From Gemmatimonadota bacterium (GTDB taxonomy: Bacteria; Gemmatimonadota; Gemmatimonadetes; Longimicrobiales; Gaopeijiaceae), in the NCBI GenBank assembly GCA_009838975.1, contig VXQO01000070.1, forward strand, positions 1-41,614: a stretch of 41,614 nucleotides of DNA. Direction: 5' to 3'. Shown here piece by piece: positions 8,512 to 19,729 of this stretch; position 1 is the stretch's first letter, and every line of letters starts with the position of its first letter. A program made the position numbers and the translations under genes. The notes beneath the pieces were generated by a model, which saw only the letters and a program-made list of their open reading frames with translations, made no database searches and was not told where the DNA came from.

Positions 8512-9588
8512 TCAGGCGCGTTCGGCGTCGGGCTGGCTGGCAGGGTCGGCGTCCGCGGGGCGGGCCTCCGGCGCGCCGCCTTCCCCCTCTGCCCGGCCCT
8601 CCCGGTGCTCGCGCATGTAGTCCTCCGTCCCCTCGGGCAGGAACAGGTTGTCGGAAATGTCCGCGATTTCCTCGGCTTCCCGCCAGGCTTGCTCCAGCAG
8701 CCACAACTCGCCCTCGAGCGCCCGCCGCTCCTGCTCTTCGTGTAGCGCCATCTCGAGCGCCAGCTTGGTCGGCCTGGGCATCTTGTTGATGTAGCCGGGC
8801 ACCCCCTTCTTGTCCTGGAAGCGGTCTCCGGCGGCTACGTCGAGAAGGAAGTGCTCCGGGTGGCCAAGCGCTTCGATCTCGTCCACTGCTCCCTGGACGA
8901 TCTCCTTCGTGCCTCCCATCGAGTTCATCCTGGGCAGAATCGATCCGGCGAAGCGGCGGGCCTCGGGGCCCTCGTGCCACGTCTTCTTCTTCCCCTTGCG
9001 GACCTGGAGCTTGAATCCGAAGTCGTCGTCGGCCGGGCGCACGCGCGTGCCCAGCAGGTCCTGGCGCTTGAGCCTGATCGTGCCCCCGTCGTCGGGATGG
9101 AGCTTGACGAGTGTACGCGCATTCATCCACATGTTGACGAAATTGCCCGACTGGCTGAGCATGAAGCCGCTGAAGATCCCCGCGGCGGCTCCCCCGATCA
9201 TGATTCCTCCGAAGACGGCGACACCGGCGGCGCCATACAGGATCGTCTTGCGCCGCCGCCGGCCGAACTGGTCCCCATAGCGCCACGCCGCGAACTCGGG
9301 CCGCATAGGCTCGCCGATCCGCACGAGAGTCAACCCCTCGGGGTGTCGCGCAAGACCGATATTGTCGGTGGAAACGCGGATGCGGGTGTCACGGAAGATC
9401 CGCTCGCACTCCTCGACCGCCTCCCACCGTTCCTCGAGTGGCGACAGGTTCCAGCGCTCACACTTCCTGCAGACCACCCAAAGGCGCCCCCGGGAGGCGT
9501 CGAAGGCGAGTCGGCGCCCGACGGGGAACGACTCGATGACCTCGTTGGCACCCAGAGGCTTCCGGCAGAACATACAGGACTTGTACAC
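8512..9588 (-). CDS. Zinc-ribbon membrane protein of unknown function (paralog A)
   Basis: I do not recognise a named family. The protein is 358 residues from a GTG start at 9588, chosen because AAGGAG sits just upstream and the paralog at 10938 begins at the same point (YKSCMFC versus YRNCMYC). Two CxxC pairs (Cys5/Cys8 and Cys40/Cys43) suggest a zinc ribbon. A conserved stretch (PEFAAWRYGDQFGRRRR) leads into a hydrophobic segment at about 115-144. The C-terminal part holds a charged helix ending in EAEEIADISDNL, which is nearly identical in the paralog, and then a low-complexity tail. The layout suggests a membrane-anchored sensor or adaptor (inference). The gene is divergent from the DUF819 gene. 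Confidence 0.75.
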   Translation of the reverse strand: MYKSCMFCRKPLGANEVIESFPVGRRLAFDASRGRLWVVCRKCERWNLSPLEERWEAVEECERIFRDTRIRVSTDNIGLARHPEGLTLVRIGEPMRPEFAAWRYGDQFGRRRRKTILYGAAGVAVFGGIMIGGAAAGIFSGFMLSQSGNFVNMWMNARTLVKLHPDDGGTIRLKRQDLLGTRVRPADDDFGFKLQVRKGKKKTWHEGPEARRFAGSILPRMNSMGGTKEIVQGAVDEIEALGHPEHFLLDVAAGDRFQDKKGVPGYINKMPRPTKLALEMALHEEQERRALEGELWLLEQAWREAEEIADISDNLFLPEGTEDYMREHREGRAEGEGGAPEARPADADPASQPDAERA

Positions 9589-9708
9589 GGTGCTCCTTGT
9601 TTGCCCTGATCGGGGATCGCAGGTTTCCACGCGAAGATACGCGGGCGCTTGCGATTTCATTCCCCGAGCGTGGGAATCTACCAGAGAACATCGAGCGAGG
9701 TGAGGGCC

Positions 9709-10937: not shown

Positions 10938-12006
10938 ATGTACCGGAACTGCATGTACTGCCAGAAGGACCTCGGCAGTAACGGGGTAATCGAGGAGTTT
11001 TCCGGTGGGCCGCCGCCTGGCCTTCGACGCGGCGAAGGGGAGGCTCTGGGTCGTGTGTTGCAGGTGCGAGCGCTGGAACCTCACGCCGCTGGAAGAGCGA
11101 TGGGAGGCGGTGGAGACGTGCGAGAAGCTGTTTCAGGGCACGCGTGTCCGCGTTTCGACTGAGAACATAGGGCTGGCGAAGCACCCTCAGGGTCTGCAAC
11201 TGGTGCGAATCGGCAGGCCGCTGAGGCCCGAGTTTGCGGCGTGGCGGTATGGGGACCAGTTCGGCCGGAGGAGGAGGCGCACCTTCGTACTGGGAGCCGC
11301 CACGACGGTGGCTGGAGTTGGCGGCCTGGTCCTGGGTGGTGCATTGGTGGGGTTGGGGGGTATCGGCCTCGTGGGGCCGGTCTTCCACTCGATCGAGGTC
11401 TGGACCAGGTTTCGTCCGTCGGTATTCTTCCGCCCACAGGACGGGCGACTGAGGTGGATGAATGGACACCGCATTCGCAGCGCTCGACTGGTGCCGGCCG
11501 ACGACGAATCCGGCTTCAGCGTTGAAGCGACGGCCCGGGGTGTGGTCTCCGCCGAGGAGCGGTTCGAGGAGGAGGATGGGGTGCGTGCTCTGAACGCGAT
11601 CATGCCGAGGGTCAATGCCGGAGGCGGTTCCCGAGGGACCGTCCAGGACGCTGTCGCGAGGATTGCCTTTGCGGGGCACGCCGACCGGTTTGTGCGGCGC
11701 CTTGCAAACGGGCGAGCATCTCCATACTCACCGGCAGGCGTACAGTTGAGTACGCTGACGAGGCCCACTCGCCTTGCGCTCGAGATGGCACTCCACGAAG
11801 AACAGGAACGTAGGGCGCTGGAAGGCGAGCTGTGGATGCTGGAGCGTGCATGGCGGGAGGCTGAGGAGATTGCTGCCATCTCGGACAATCTGTTGGTGCG
11901 CAAGAGTGCGGAGGCTTTTGTCCGGGAGCACCGGGACGAGCGCGAGGGCAAGGGTGGACTCCGGGCGGGTGAGAGTGGACCCCCGGAAACCGAGGAACGC
12001 GAGTGA
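10938..12006 (+). pseudogene. Zinc-ribbon membrane protein (paralog B) with a one-base frameshift
   Basis: This is the second copy of the protein at 8512-9588. The ATG at 10938 encodes YRNCMYCQKDLGSNGVIEEF, after which the reading frame shifts. Removing one T from the TTTT run at 10998-11001 restores EEFPVGRRLAFD, exactly matching paralog A, and the frame then stays open to 12006. A GTG at 11005 with GAGGAG seven bases upstream could restart translation and give a 333-residue protein that lacks the first CxxC but keeps CCRC, the membrane segment and the conserved C-terminal helix. It may be a decayed gene, a sequencing or assembly error, or a real slip site. The stop overlaps the start of the next gene (GTGA). 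Confidence 0.8.
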
Positions 12007-16433: not shown

Positions 16434-18209
16434 CTAATCCCACCCCACCTGACCCGCGCGCCCCACGGCATCCACCCGGATCGTCAGGATGTCGATGTCG
16501 TGATACTGCTGGTGGCGAATCGACGACGCGTAGTGCCGAAGGAGCCGCAGCGGCGTCTCGGTCTCGACGGGGACGCTGGCCGTTGCCTCGCTGAGCATCG
16601 CCAGCTGATCCTCGATGTTGGTCGCATCCGTGGTGGCGATGAACTCCAGATCGGCGGCGTTGCCGTCGCTGCGTGCAATCAGCAGCAGGCGCCGCTCCCC
16701 GTCCGCCGTCTCTTCCGCGTCGCCACTCGTCAGGATCTGCATCGTTTCTTCGCCCACGGCGCGCAGCCGCGTTTCCATCTCCTCGCCCCAGCGCTTGCGG
16801 GCGGCGAACCTGGTCAGGAAGGCGTCCACCTCCGGCCACGTCGCGGCGGTCAGGCGGGTCTTGAGGCGTGATCTGCCCCCGCCTCCGATCTCCCCGAACA
16901 CCGTCAGCAGGATCACGGTCAGGCCGCCGACGGTCATGCCGTTCCCGAGCAGTTCACCCCATGCGCCCTGCAGGTACTCCGGGTAGATCCAGCCGAACTG
17001 GAAGGCGATGCCGAGCCAGAAGGCGACGCCGACCACCAGACTCTTCCGGTAGTCCAGTCCTTCCGAAAGCAGGATCTTCATGCCGAAGACGAAGATCAGG
17101 GCGACGAGGATCACGTAGTACGCCGCCACCACCGGCCCCGGTATCGCAACGATCAGCGTGACGAACTTGGGCAGGAACGCGAGCACGATGAAGACGGCCC
17201 CGACGCAGATCCCGATCCGGCGCGCGGCGACCCCGGTCAGTTCGGCGACCGCGATGCTCATGCCGTACGTCGTGTTCGGGACGGTGCCGGCCAGGCCGGA
17301 GAGGAGATTGCCCACGCCGTCGGCGCCGATCGCCCCCTGAATCGAGCGGAAGTCGATCGCGCGAGGCTTGCGCCAGGAGACCCGCTGGATCGCGATGGCG
17401 TCTCCGAGGGTGTCCATCGCGCCGACCAGGGTCACCATGATGAACGAGGGCAGAAGGGCCCAGAACTCGGGCCGGAAAGAGAGGTCGATCCCGGGATAGG
17501 CCAGATCCGGCAGGCCGATCCACGCGGCTTCGGCGACGGTGGTCATGTCGTAGATCCCGAAGCCGAGGGCGGCGACGAGGCACCCGGCTACGATACCCAG
17601 GGCCGGCGCCCACAGCCGCAACACACCCGAAAAACGCAGTGGGACGAGGAGGGTGACGAGCAGCGTTACGCCCGCCGTGACCGGCCCGGCCAATGGTGAG
17701 GCGTCCGCGGGTACCTCGGCCAGCTTGCGCAGGATGAGCGGCGTGAGCGTAATCGGAATGAGGATCAGCACGGTGCCCGCCACCGTCGGTGTAAACACCT
17801 TGCGCAGGAGCGCCATGCGTGCCGCCAGGACGAACTGGACCAGCGCGGCGGCGATGATCAGAGTGGCGAGCATGCCCGGCCCGCCCCGCTCGATGGCGGT
17901 CACGCTCACGGCGAGAAACGCGCTCGTGCTTCCCATCACGAGGATGTAGCCGGCGCCGATCCGTCCCAGCTTGCGGGCCTGAATCGCAGTGGTGAGGCCA
18001 CTGATCACGAGCGCGGCAAACACTGCCCACGAGAGGTATTCGTCACTGCCTCCCGCGAGGGTGATCATGATCATCGGGGTTAGCACGATGCTCGCGATGC
18101 AGAGCATGGCATACTGCAACCCGAGTCCGACGGTTATGGGCAGCGGGGGCCGATCGTCGGGCTGGTAGCGGACGTCCTGGCGCGTCTCGGCGGGGCCTGA
18201 GCCGCTCAT
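16434..18209 (-). CDS. NCS2/SLC23-type nucleobase permease with a fused C-terminal cytoplasmic domain
   Basis: A 591-residue inner-membrane transporter. Residues 25-440 form the nucleobase:cation symporter-2 core, with about 14 hydrophobic spans and the family signature PNTTYGMSIAVAELTGVAAR (311-330). Family members import xanthine, uric acid or uracil with protons or sodium. Residues 450-591 are an extra soluble domain not found in ordinary permeases of about 450 residues. It has an EEMETRLRAVGEETMQIL helix, a beta pair (RRLLLIARSD and DLEFIATTD) and a final LRLLRHYASSIRHQQYHDID. This order recalls an RsbW-type ATPase fold without its Asn box (inference). The ATG overlaps the decarboxylase stop by four bases (ATGA), so it ends a coupled operon. 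Confidence 0.88.
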   Translation of the reverse strand: MSGSGPAETRQDVRYQPDDRPPLPITVGLGLQYAMLCIASIVLTPMIMITLAGGSDEYLSWAVFAALVISGLTTAIQARKLGRIGAGYILVMGSTSAFLAVSVTAIERGGPGMLATLIIAAALVQFVLAARMALLRKVFTPTVAGTVLILIPITLTPLILRKLAEVPADASPLAGPVTAGVTLLVTLLVPLRFSGVLRLWAPALGIVAGCLVAALGFGIYDMTTVAEAAWIGLPDLAYPGIDLSFRPEFWALLPSFIMVTLVGAMDTLGDAIAIQRVSWRKPRAIDFRSIQGAIGADGVGNLLSGLAGTVPNTTYGMSIAVAELTGVAARRIGICVGAVFIVLAFLPKFVTLIVAIPGPVVAAYYVILVALIFVFGMKILLSEGLDYRKSLVVGVAFWLGIAFQFGWIYPEYLQGAWGELLGNGMTVGGLTVILLTVFGEIGGGGRSRLKTRLTAATWPEVDAFLTRFAARKRWGEEMETRLRAVGEETMQILTSGDAEETADGERRLLLIARSDGNAADLEFIATTDATNIEDQLAMLSEATASVPVETETPLRLLRHYASSIRHQQYHDIDILTIRVDAVGRAGQVGWD

Positions 18210-19729
18210 CCGCCTCGGCCCGCCGCTGCCACCGTCGGGCGCCACCGTTCGGGGTGGGCCTCGAGCCGCTCGAGCGCCTCGCGCAGCACCGCGAGCGCCA
18301 GATCGATCGTGTCGAGATGCGTGCGAAACGCCAGCGCCGCCATCCGCAGCATGAACTTTCCCTTTACCGTCGTGGACGACATGAATACCCGGCCGTCGCG
18401 GTGCGTTTCTTCGACGAGCGCCTGGTTGAACGCATTCGCGCTGCCCGACTCGGGCACCCACCTGAAGGTCACCACGGTGAGATCCGGCTCCGGCCCCAGT
18501 TCGAAGCCGAGCCTTTCGACCTCGCGGTGGAAGTACTTCGTGAGTTCCAGCTTCTCGCGCAGGCACGCCCGGAACGGCTCCTCACCGTGCAGGAGCAGCG
18601 GCAGCCATACGCGCAGTGCGCGGAAGTGCTTGGTCAGCTCCGGCGATACCGCAGCGGGCGAGCGGCCTCCGCCCTCCGACTCCACCGTGTCCTGCAGGTA
18701 GGCGGCGTAGTAGGCGTGCGCGTCCTGGAGCGCATCGCGGTTCCGGACGAGGACGGCGCCCGTGCCGTAGGGCAGGAACATGCTCTTGTGCGGGTCGAGA
18801 ACCAGCGAGTCGGCGCGTTCCAGTCCGGCGAGCTGCGGACGAAACTCGTCGAGCAGGGCGAAGAAGCCCCCGTACGCGGCGTCGACGTGGAACCAGAGAC
18901 CCTCCCGCCGGCAAATGTCGGCGACCCGGTCGAGCGGGTCGATGGCACCCGTGTCCGCGGTGCCGGCCGAGCCGAGAACGAGCCAGGGCCGCAGCCCCTG
19001 CGCCCGATCCGCGGCGACGAGTTCGGACAGCGACCGGGGGCACATGCGGAAGCCCTCGTCGACGGGGACGTCGCGGGGCACGGTTTCCCCCATGCCGGCC
19101 ACCCGGATAGCCTTGTGGAGGCACTGATGAATGTGGGGGGTGGCGTACACGACGGCGCTATCGAAGTCGCGGGCCTTGAGCCCGGCCGCTTCGCGTGCCG
19201 CGACGATCGCGGTCAGACTCGCAATCGAGCCGCCCGACGCGAGGTTGCCGTCGGCGGTAGGGGGGAAGCCGACGACCCGGGCCATCCAGTCGAGGATCAT
19301 GTCCTCCATTTCGACCGATCCCGGGCCCACGAAGCGGACGCCGGCGTATTCGTTCGTGACGGCGGCGAGGTAGTCGGCGAGCGACGAGGCGTAGAGCCCG
19401 CCACCCGGGATGTATGCCAGGTGTCCCGGATGGGACGGAAGGAGGCCGGGCCGCACGACGGATTCGTCGAAGCGGGCGATGAGCTGCTCGATGGGATGGG
19501 GTCCGTCGCCCGTCCCGAGCCTTCGGATCTCCTCGACCGCCGACTTGTCGTGGCTGTAGGCGGGCTTGTTCGCGATGTCGCTCAGGAGGTGTTGTGCGAA
19601 CCCGTGCGCCGCGCGCATGAGGCGGTTGCGCTCACGTTCATCGGGGTCGAGCGCCCGTGCCCGCTCCTCCAGTTCGAGAATCCGGGCCCGGGCCCGGCCT
19701 GAGTTGCGATGCATGGAGCTATCGATCAC
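18206..19729 (-). CDS. Group II pyridoxal-phosphate-dependent decarboxylase
   Basis: A 507-residue enzyme of the aromatic amino acid/glutamate decarboxylase family. The PLP lysine is Lys315 in DPHKSMFLPYG, and the aspartate that pairs with the cofactor is in FHVDAAYGG. The family's substrate-loop region GLLPSHPGHLAYIPGGG is near the N-terminus. The length is usual. Substrates in the family include aromatic amino acids, glutamate, aspartate and histidine, and I cannot choose between them. It starts with GTG at 19729, overlapping the LanC-like stop (GTGA); an ATG five codons in is another possible start. Its stop overlaps the permease start. Tight coupling on both sides suggests that its product or substrate is shared with the LanC-like protein or the permease. 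Confidence 0.92.
   Translation of the reverse strand: MIDSSMHRNSGRARARILELEERARALDPDERERNRLMRAAHGFAQHLLSDIANKPAYSHDKSAVEEIRRLGTGDGPHPIEQLIARFDESVVRPGLLPSHPGHLAYIPGGGLYASSLADYLAAVTNEYAGVRFVGPGSVEMEDMILDWMARVVGFPPTADGNLASGGSIASLTAIVAAREAAGLKARDFDSAVVYATPHIHQCLHKAIRVAGMGETVPRDVPVDEGFRMCPRSLSELVAADRAQGLRPWLVLGSAGTADTGAIDPLDRVADICRREGLWFHVDAAYGGFFALLDEFRPQLAGLERADSLVLDPHKSMFLPYGTGAVLVRNRDALQDAHAYYAAYLQDTVESEGGGRSPAAVSPELTKHFRALRVWLPLLLHGEEPFRACLREKLELTKYFHREVERLGFELGPEPDLTVVTFRWVPESGSANAFNQALVEETHRDGRVFMSSTTVKGKFMLRMAALAFRTHLDTIDLALAVLREALERLEAHPERWRPTVAAAGRGG

Follow-up and report, generated by a model that had tools for sequence, protein, structure and literature searches.

The window, by which we mean the whole analyzed stretch of 41,614 nucleotides, carries on its minus strand a gene for a protein of 591 amino acids, whose ATG start codon begins at 18209, whose final residue extends to 16437 and whose stop codon occupies 16434-16436 according to the reading of the open reading frame (Table 1). 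Pfam assigns the protein to a single family, Xan_ur_permease (PF00860; E 1.3e-45), and finds no match in its C-terminal 142 amino acids; the NCBIfam models recovered with it are exclusively of the NCS2 type, and every one of them scores under its own cut-off. In the full-length AlphaFold model of the protein (41 sequences; mean pLDDT 79.0), helices spanning residues 23-442 are followed by an alpha/beta domain. An earlier note on this DNA, all of whose quoted sequence strings are found in the protein, had placed an extra domain behind the final membrane span. The model bears out this position, although it moves the proposed boundary at residue 450 (16860): since the final membrane helix (residues 424-442) ends at 442, the extra domain starts slightly earlier, at about residue 446 (window 16874). 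Both the fold and the fusion are well supported.

Table 1. Features of the permease gene and its upstream neighbor in the window.
Feature	Position in the window	Strand	Evidence or conservation
Group II PLP-dependent decarboxylase, upstream of the permease	18206..19729	(-)	Sequence; Pfam (PF00282, E 2.1e-57)
CDS of 591 aa, NCS2 permease with degenerate domain of predicted RsbW fold	16437..18209	(-)	ORF; PF00860; full-length model
Permease part, residues 23-442, UapA/UraA fold	16884..18143	(-)	Model helices; Foldseek UapA, SVCT1, UraA
TM8 motif, residues 264-270 (AMDTLGD); D266 for UapA E356, D270 kept	17400..17420	(-)	UapA alignment
TM10, residues 311-320 (PNTTYGMSIA); NAT Gln-Asn of UapA replaced by Met-Ser	17250..17279	(-)	UapA alignment
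C-terminal cytosolic domain, residues 446-591, predicted RsbW/SpoIIAB (HATPase_c_2) fold	16437..16874	(-)	Model; Foldseek; VIA-align; Pfam on homologs
Helix 476-495, equivalent to the N-box helix; E487/E488 kept, Asn lost (EETMQIL)	16725..16784	(-)	E42/E43 in 85/85
G1 box region, residues 525-534 (ATTDATNIED); DxGxG lost, N531 (domain N86) kept	16608..16637	(-)	N86 in 84/85
G2 box region and family signature, residues 551-573 (ETPLRLLRHYASSIRHQQYHDID)	16491..16559	(-)	L112, H114, A116, H121 and D128 in 85/85; R110 in 84/85

When the membrane part was compared with solved structures by Foldseek, UapA (5i6c) was the best match (E 3.7e-16); SVCT1 and UraA were recovered too, as were SLC26 and SULTR. 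The protein thus has PF00860 and the UapA/UraA fold in common with the NAT/NCS2 transporters, and the acidic residue of TM8 and the GD that follows are mostly kept: as read from the alignment table, 81 of 82 rows have Asp or Glu as the TM8 acid, and position 270 is Asp in 81 of 82. In contrast to the NAT/NCS2 proteins, the Gln-Asn of the NAT signature is absent from the letters listed for these 82 aligned rows. The segment Q408-N409-N-G411 of UapA reads M317-S318-I-A320 in the window protein, and we found neither a Gln at position 317 (letters listed for 81 of the 82 rows) nor an Asn at position 318 (letters listed for all 82). In UapA, xanthine is contacted by Q408 and E356, and the substitutions N409D or Q408P render transport undetectable (excerpts of PMC4837479). 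Since the Gln-Asn pair is absent, a purine substrate cannot be assumed. Among the nine fusions of the window's own genome, four have replaced the TM8 acid by Lys (contigs C140 and C130) or Arg (C132 and C118) and have kept the domain. By analogy with UapA, these copies may be without transport activity; that they may not transport and yet keep the domain favors a receptor-like role. The annotation of these genes as xanthine/uracil permeases may be wrong in substrate as well as in role.

The extra domain is not a chance product, as it recurs in 36 of 98 relatives (matches at E <= 0.01), and its AlphaFold model was based on an alignment of the window domain with 39 homologs (A2; 40 members). With a mean pLDDT of 77.8 and a pTM of 0.75, and with pLDDT values below 50 in three loops or tails (domain residues 53-58, 97-106 and 139-146), the model does not point to a disordered region, an outcome that the earlier note had named as fatal to its proposal. 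The secondary-structure elements follow the order E-H-H-E-E-H-H-E-E, which is that of RsbW and agrees with the helix and strand layout of HATPase_c_2 kinases that had been read from the letters. Ranks 1-18 of the Foldseek search against the PDB are all taken by UsfX, SpoIIAB, RsbW or SigF/anti-sigma chains (E 6.4e-6 to 1.3e-3). In VIA-align comparisons, the anti-sigma kinase group reaches Z scores of 12.7-14.8, with no other entry above 10.8: the predicted model aligns to RsbW (6m37) with a Z score of 14.8 and an rmsd of 2.1 over 113 residues at about 10% identity, and scores of 14.5, 13.8 and 13.4 were obtained for UsfX, Rv1364c and SpoIIAB, respectively. SiaB (10.8) and LvrC (10.6) follow, and the remaining entries score 7.7 or less (histidine kinases at most 7.7). 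The modeling check against RsbW/SpoIIAB therefore turned out in favor of the anti-sigma kinases, which rank top in both searches. A STAS or ACT fold, the other outcome feared for the proposal, was considered and dropped: the Foldseek list contained no STAS entry and a single ACT-like entry at rank 49 (E 0.05), with the proviso that a fold missing from such a list is not thereby disproved.

A link to the anti-sigma kinases is also provided by Pfam. Two of eight fused homologs pass the cut-off of 27.4 bits for HATPase_c_2 (PF13581), L178 with 32.3 bits (E 1.1e-7) and L179 with 28.6 bits, and the other six score 22.3-26.9 bits, under the cut-off; L131 scores 26.6 bits, and two paralogs from the window's own genome 23.2 and 17.6 bits. 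Among the 40 members of A2, the same family was matched in two (best E 6.7e-6), with every other family at 0.0043 or worse. The window protein gave no significant match to PF13581, its copy being too divergent by sequence, and neither phmmer nor hmmsearch with the domain returned anything significant from the PDB sequences. Weak matches to the NCBIfam model of RsbA-type anti-sigma regulators (NF041045) were seen in four of six proteins (3.5e-4 to 2.2e-3), far under the curated cut-off. The profile-profile comparison, a kind of check that the earlier note had called for, failed: when 62 sequences of the domain were compared by hhalign with canonical HATPase_c_2 sequences from the same genus (up to 32, with duplicates removed), the probability was 0.2, below the values of up to 3 reached by 30 column-shuffled controls. 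No alignment extended over the whole domain, and other settings did no better. Similarly, an HMM built from the canonical same-genus set scored the domain at 3.4 bits at most. Since the profile comparison with canonical members failed, the claim of homology is based on the Pfam HMM and the predicted fold, and we regard the resemblance of the modeled domain to RsbW/SpoIIAB as supported.

The ATP site of the GHKL fold is built from three segments. We assessed the conservation of the corresponding regions in 85 copies of the domain (62 NCS2-fused, 17 stand-alone, 5 divergent NCS2-fused and 1 RND-fused). The Asn of the N box (Glu-x3-Asn), whose loss from the window copy had been pointed out before, is indeed missing there in both possible registers (Q46 after E42 or I47 after E43), and Asn is found at position 46 in 2/85 and at position 47 in 2/85 copies. 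However, this loss is just one of several, and to call the domain degenerate was an understatement, since all three ATP motifs (N, G1 and G2) are gone. No conserved Asp/Gly pattern of the G1 box (Asp-x-Gly-x-Gly) exists at positions 80-85; position 80, which corresponds to the G1 Asp by our reading of the strand, is Ala, Ser or Val in 85/85 copies, and a DxGxG string occurs anywhere in only two of the 85 rows. The Gly-x-Gly of the G2 box before the last helix is likewise not found: at positions 106-109 most copies have E/D, a variable residue, S/P and L, with a Gly at position 108 in 5/85 copies and the looser GxG string anywhere in at least 10 rows. Where canonical members have the segment MDEV, an alignment by eye shows ASSV in the domain.

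In place of these motifs, another set of residues is strictly kept. E42, E43, L48, L112, H114, A116, H121 and D128 are identical in all 85 copies, and N86 and R110 are each present in 84. This set is common to the NCS2-fused and the stand-alone copies and, with the exception of N86, to the RND-fused one, which argues that these residues are intrinsic to the domain and do not serve in docking to the permease. We take the invariant polar residues to be located within these three ATP-site segments of the GHKL fold. Judged from these sequence patterns, ATP use has likely been lost, and since the architecture is kept while the conserved polar set has been swapped, the domain has probably been given another ligand or interaction. 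The strict conservation of a different polar set suggests new chemistry or a new ligand for a well-known switch fold.

The genome from which the window derives contains ten PF00860 genes, nine of which carry the domain, so that the RsbW-type domain is the norm among the multi-copy permeases of this bacterium. The tenth (contig C134), which from its sequence we presume to be AzgA-like, lacks it. A search of the same genome with the domain returned ten places, namely the nine NCS2 fusions and a stand-alone gene on contig C101 (L204:6032-6544) for a protein of 171 amino acids that consists of one hydrophobic helix and the domain, with no transporter. A domain that is present about ten times in this genome, and once without a transporter, looks like an undescribed regulatory module. 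Throughout the genus, the domain is present in 23/23 genomes with 3 to at least 10 copies each, and a stand-alone gene (defined by a match with E below 1e-34 in a frame of 140-273 amino acids) exists in 21 of them, with G001 and G003 having fused-type matches only. Five of the 23 (G002, G006, G012, G018 and G021) possess a second, soluble copy that adjoins the anchored one. The stand-alone copies, of which L204 and L237-L248 are examples with one helix, form one branch with an SH-aLRT value of 99 in a quickly computed tree, which is based on few columns and has long branches. As separate observations, the fusion on C118 (L040) is split over two frames, reflecting either a recent pseudogene or an assembly error, and in G001 (L105 / L050) and G030 (L019 / L053) most of the permease is missing from the frame while the C-terminal domain remains, with only the second half left in G001; these remnants are probably decaying genes.

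Within the phylum, we found the domain in 49/395 genomes, representing 8/138 genera, and a pattern scan of genome contigs with its most conserved stretch yielded 365 confirmed places. The following locus-level counts cover 80 of these places and are not a census. By record titles, which are the labels of the submitters, the 80 loci belong to Gemmatimonadota, classes of Acidobacteria, Alpha- and Gammaproteobacteria, Binatota and Rhodothermales. The match coordinates of four loci titled Gammaproteobacteria (L089, L090, L094 and L097) are identical to those of genomes from the window's own family (G271, G159, G405 and G315), and these titles therefore look wrong. Going by genome names, many of the genomes presumably come from sponges. 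The domain ends an NCS2 frame in nearly all 80 loci; the exceptions are the remnant L105 and frames that are broken or cut in the assembly (e.g., L057, L076, L100, L103 and L121). We also selected 21 genomes in which the domain had not been found, from within the same family, order or class; the permease half was matched in two of them (E 1e-10; 31-33% identity), indicating that the domain and this group of permeases occur together. On the complete Vicinamibacterales chromosome OY282382.1, the domain stands in frame at the end of an AcrB-type exporter (L284:2475-5999; ACR_tran at residues 11-987, E 1.7e-148); this copy has an insert before its last helix and an Asp at the position of N86. Its presence on one RND exporter points to modular use of the domain. 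RND fusion as a general feature was rejected, since it was found once among 60 relatives and the nearest RND orthologs end without the domain.

Among known systems, RsbW, SpoIIAB and UsfX (PF13581) are the closest in fold and in the order of elements over the whole domain, with Pfam matches in the fused homologs; the domain studied here differs from them in that it lacks the ATP motifs, possesses another invariant polar set, and is tied to a membrane transporter or a membrane helix. The nearest architectural precedent is SLC26/SulP, in which the same 7+7 membrane fold is joined to a cytosolic C-terminal regulatory domain. That domain is STAS (excerpts of PMC6497670), whereas the NCS2 permeases described here append an RsbW-type domain, the partner of STAS. 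Given that RsbW-type kinases pair with STAS proteins, as in the complexes recovered by Foldseek, one half of a single switch is found on each of two transporter groups that have their membrane fold in common; we regard this as a striking parallel and no more. The nearest functional precedent is CbrA, a two-component sensor kinase that likewise unites a transporter and a GHKL-fold domain in one chain; its SLC5 transporter is coupled to a histidine kinase (excerpts of PMC13022988 and PMC7096432), and transport does not need the kinase domains (excerpts of PMC7096432). In contrast to CbrA, the transporter described here is of another family and the ATP motifs are absent; no histidine-kinase family or active kinase core was matched in the window protein. 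Among open PMC papers, none came to light that describes an NCS2 permease bearing an RsbW-type or HATPase_c_2 domain. The NAT/NCS2 classification paper PMC6308229 (excerpts) does not use the words 'C-terminal', 'fused' or 'extension', and 'permease', 'purine', 'xanthine' and 'nucleobase' are absent from PMC10469786, which deals with the Palauibacterales. Transporter-borne regulatory domains are already known; new are the combination of an RsbW-type domain with a nucleobase-transporter fold, its scale and the undescribed motif set.

The reading that we favor, with somewhat better than even confidence, is that the domain is a divergent descendant of the RsbW/SpoIIAB fold without ATP motifs that now serves as a regulatory module at the membrane, on its cytosolic side, in the manner of a transceptor. 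A regulatory or signaling role suggested by the sequences is likely in general terms and plausible for this domain. The domain, which in this protein continues from the final helix of an elevator transporter of the NCS2 type, would change its state upon substrate binding or movement of the permease. NCS2 proteins and RsbW-type proteins are both known as dimers, and the domain would for this reason probably act as a dimer as well. It would then bind or release a cytosolic partner or ligand through a putative new pocket comprising E-E, N, R-x3-H, H and D, and the stand-alone anchored and the soluble copies may share this partner or compete for it. The stand-alone genes (21/23 genomes), the soluble copies (5/23) and the fusions with Lys or Arg in TM8 (4/9) suggest that the function of the domain is separable from transport. 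In a bolder version, about which we are doubtful, anti-sigma kinases would have given rise to a new family for signaling or ligand sensing, in which a site formed by E-E, N, R-x3-H, H and D replaces the ATP site. Its carriers, namely a multi-copy set of receptor-like permeases, proteins anchored by one helix and soluble proteins, would make up a partner-switching network that extends over the membrane and operates without kinase chemistry, in uncultured bacteria from several phyla.

It is also conceivable, albeit on balance unlikely, that the domain is an autoregulatory tail that would gate its own transporter upon sensing a metabolite in the cytosol, without any outward signaling. The SLC26 proteins with their C-terminal STAS domain set a precedent for such an arrangement, almost every copy of the domain is joined to the final permease helix, and its invariant polar residues suggest a ligand site. 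However, these residues are the same in fused and stand-alone forms, and anchored and soluble copies without a transporter are present in 21 of the 23 genomes of the genus.

We consider it distinctly improbable that the domain has kept the protein-binding surface of RsbW and, devoid of kinase activity, serves as a membrane-located docking platform by which STAS proteins or sigma factors are sequestered. The closest solved structures in the Foldseek search are in fact complexes (RsbW with RsbV, UsfX with RsfB, and SpoIIAB with its partners), and the true HATPase_c_2 genes of the window's own genome have STAS-like frames, identified by sequence reading, alongside (L188 and L189). In contrast, we noticed no STAS, PP2C/phosphatase or sigma gene when the predicted genes beside 21 fused loci (23 chosen, minus L093 and L117) were inspected by eye, and none of STAS, PP2C or sigma alongside the stand-alone genes (that of L241 escaped the gene prediction); moreover, the canonical MDEV segment has become ASSV. 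Very unlikely, in our view, is an active kinase or ATPase that still binds nucleotides via a rearranged site: E42/E43, which coincide with the N-box Glu, and the other invariant polar residues would fit such a site, but the Asn and the DxGxG and GxG motifs are not conserved. A different fold altogether, with the resemblance to RsbW reflecting a common alpha/beta arrangement, is hardly credible in view of the Z score of 14.8, the rmsd of 2.1 over 113 residues, the gap to all other folds and the independent Pfam matches spanning the domain in homologs, notwithstanding the failed direct profile comparison and an identity to RsbW of only about 10%.

A partner of the domain encoded next door was considered and set aside, since the only recurrent neighbor that we found is the PLP-dependent decarboxylase (25/80 loci), and the other neighbors differ among the selected loci. 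In the window, the stop codon of the decarboxylase gene overlaps the start codon of the permease gene (ATGA). The nearest solved relatives of this PLP protein are decarboxylases for several amino acids, and it is our guess that the substrate of the permease is related to the product of the decarboxylase. Further away in the window, two proteins encoded on opposite strands (8515-9660 and 11005-12003), the first of which has no Pfam match, share the string VGRRLAFDA and have a gene for a DUF819 membrane protein between them. On the other side of the permease, a gene for a LanC-like protein (PF05147; 19729-21117) adjoins that of the decarboxylase.
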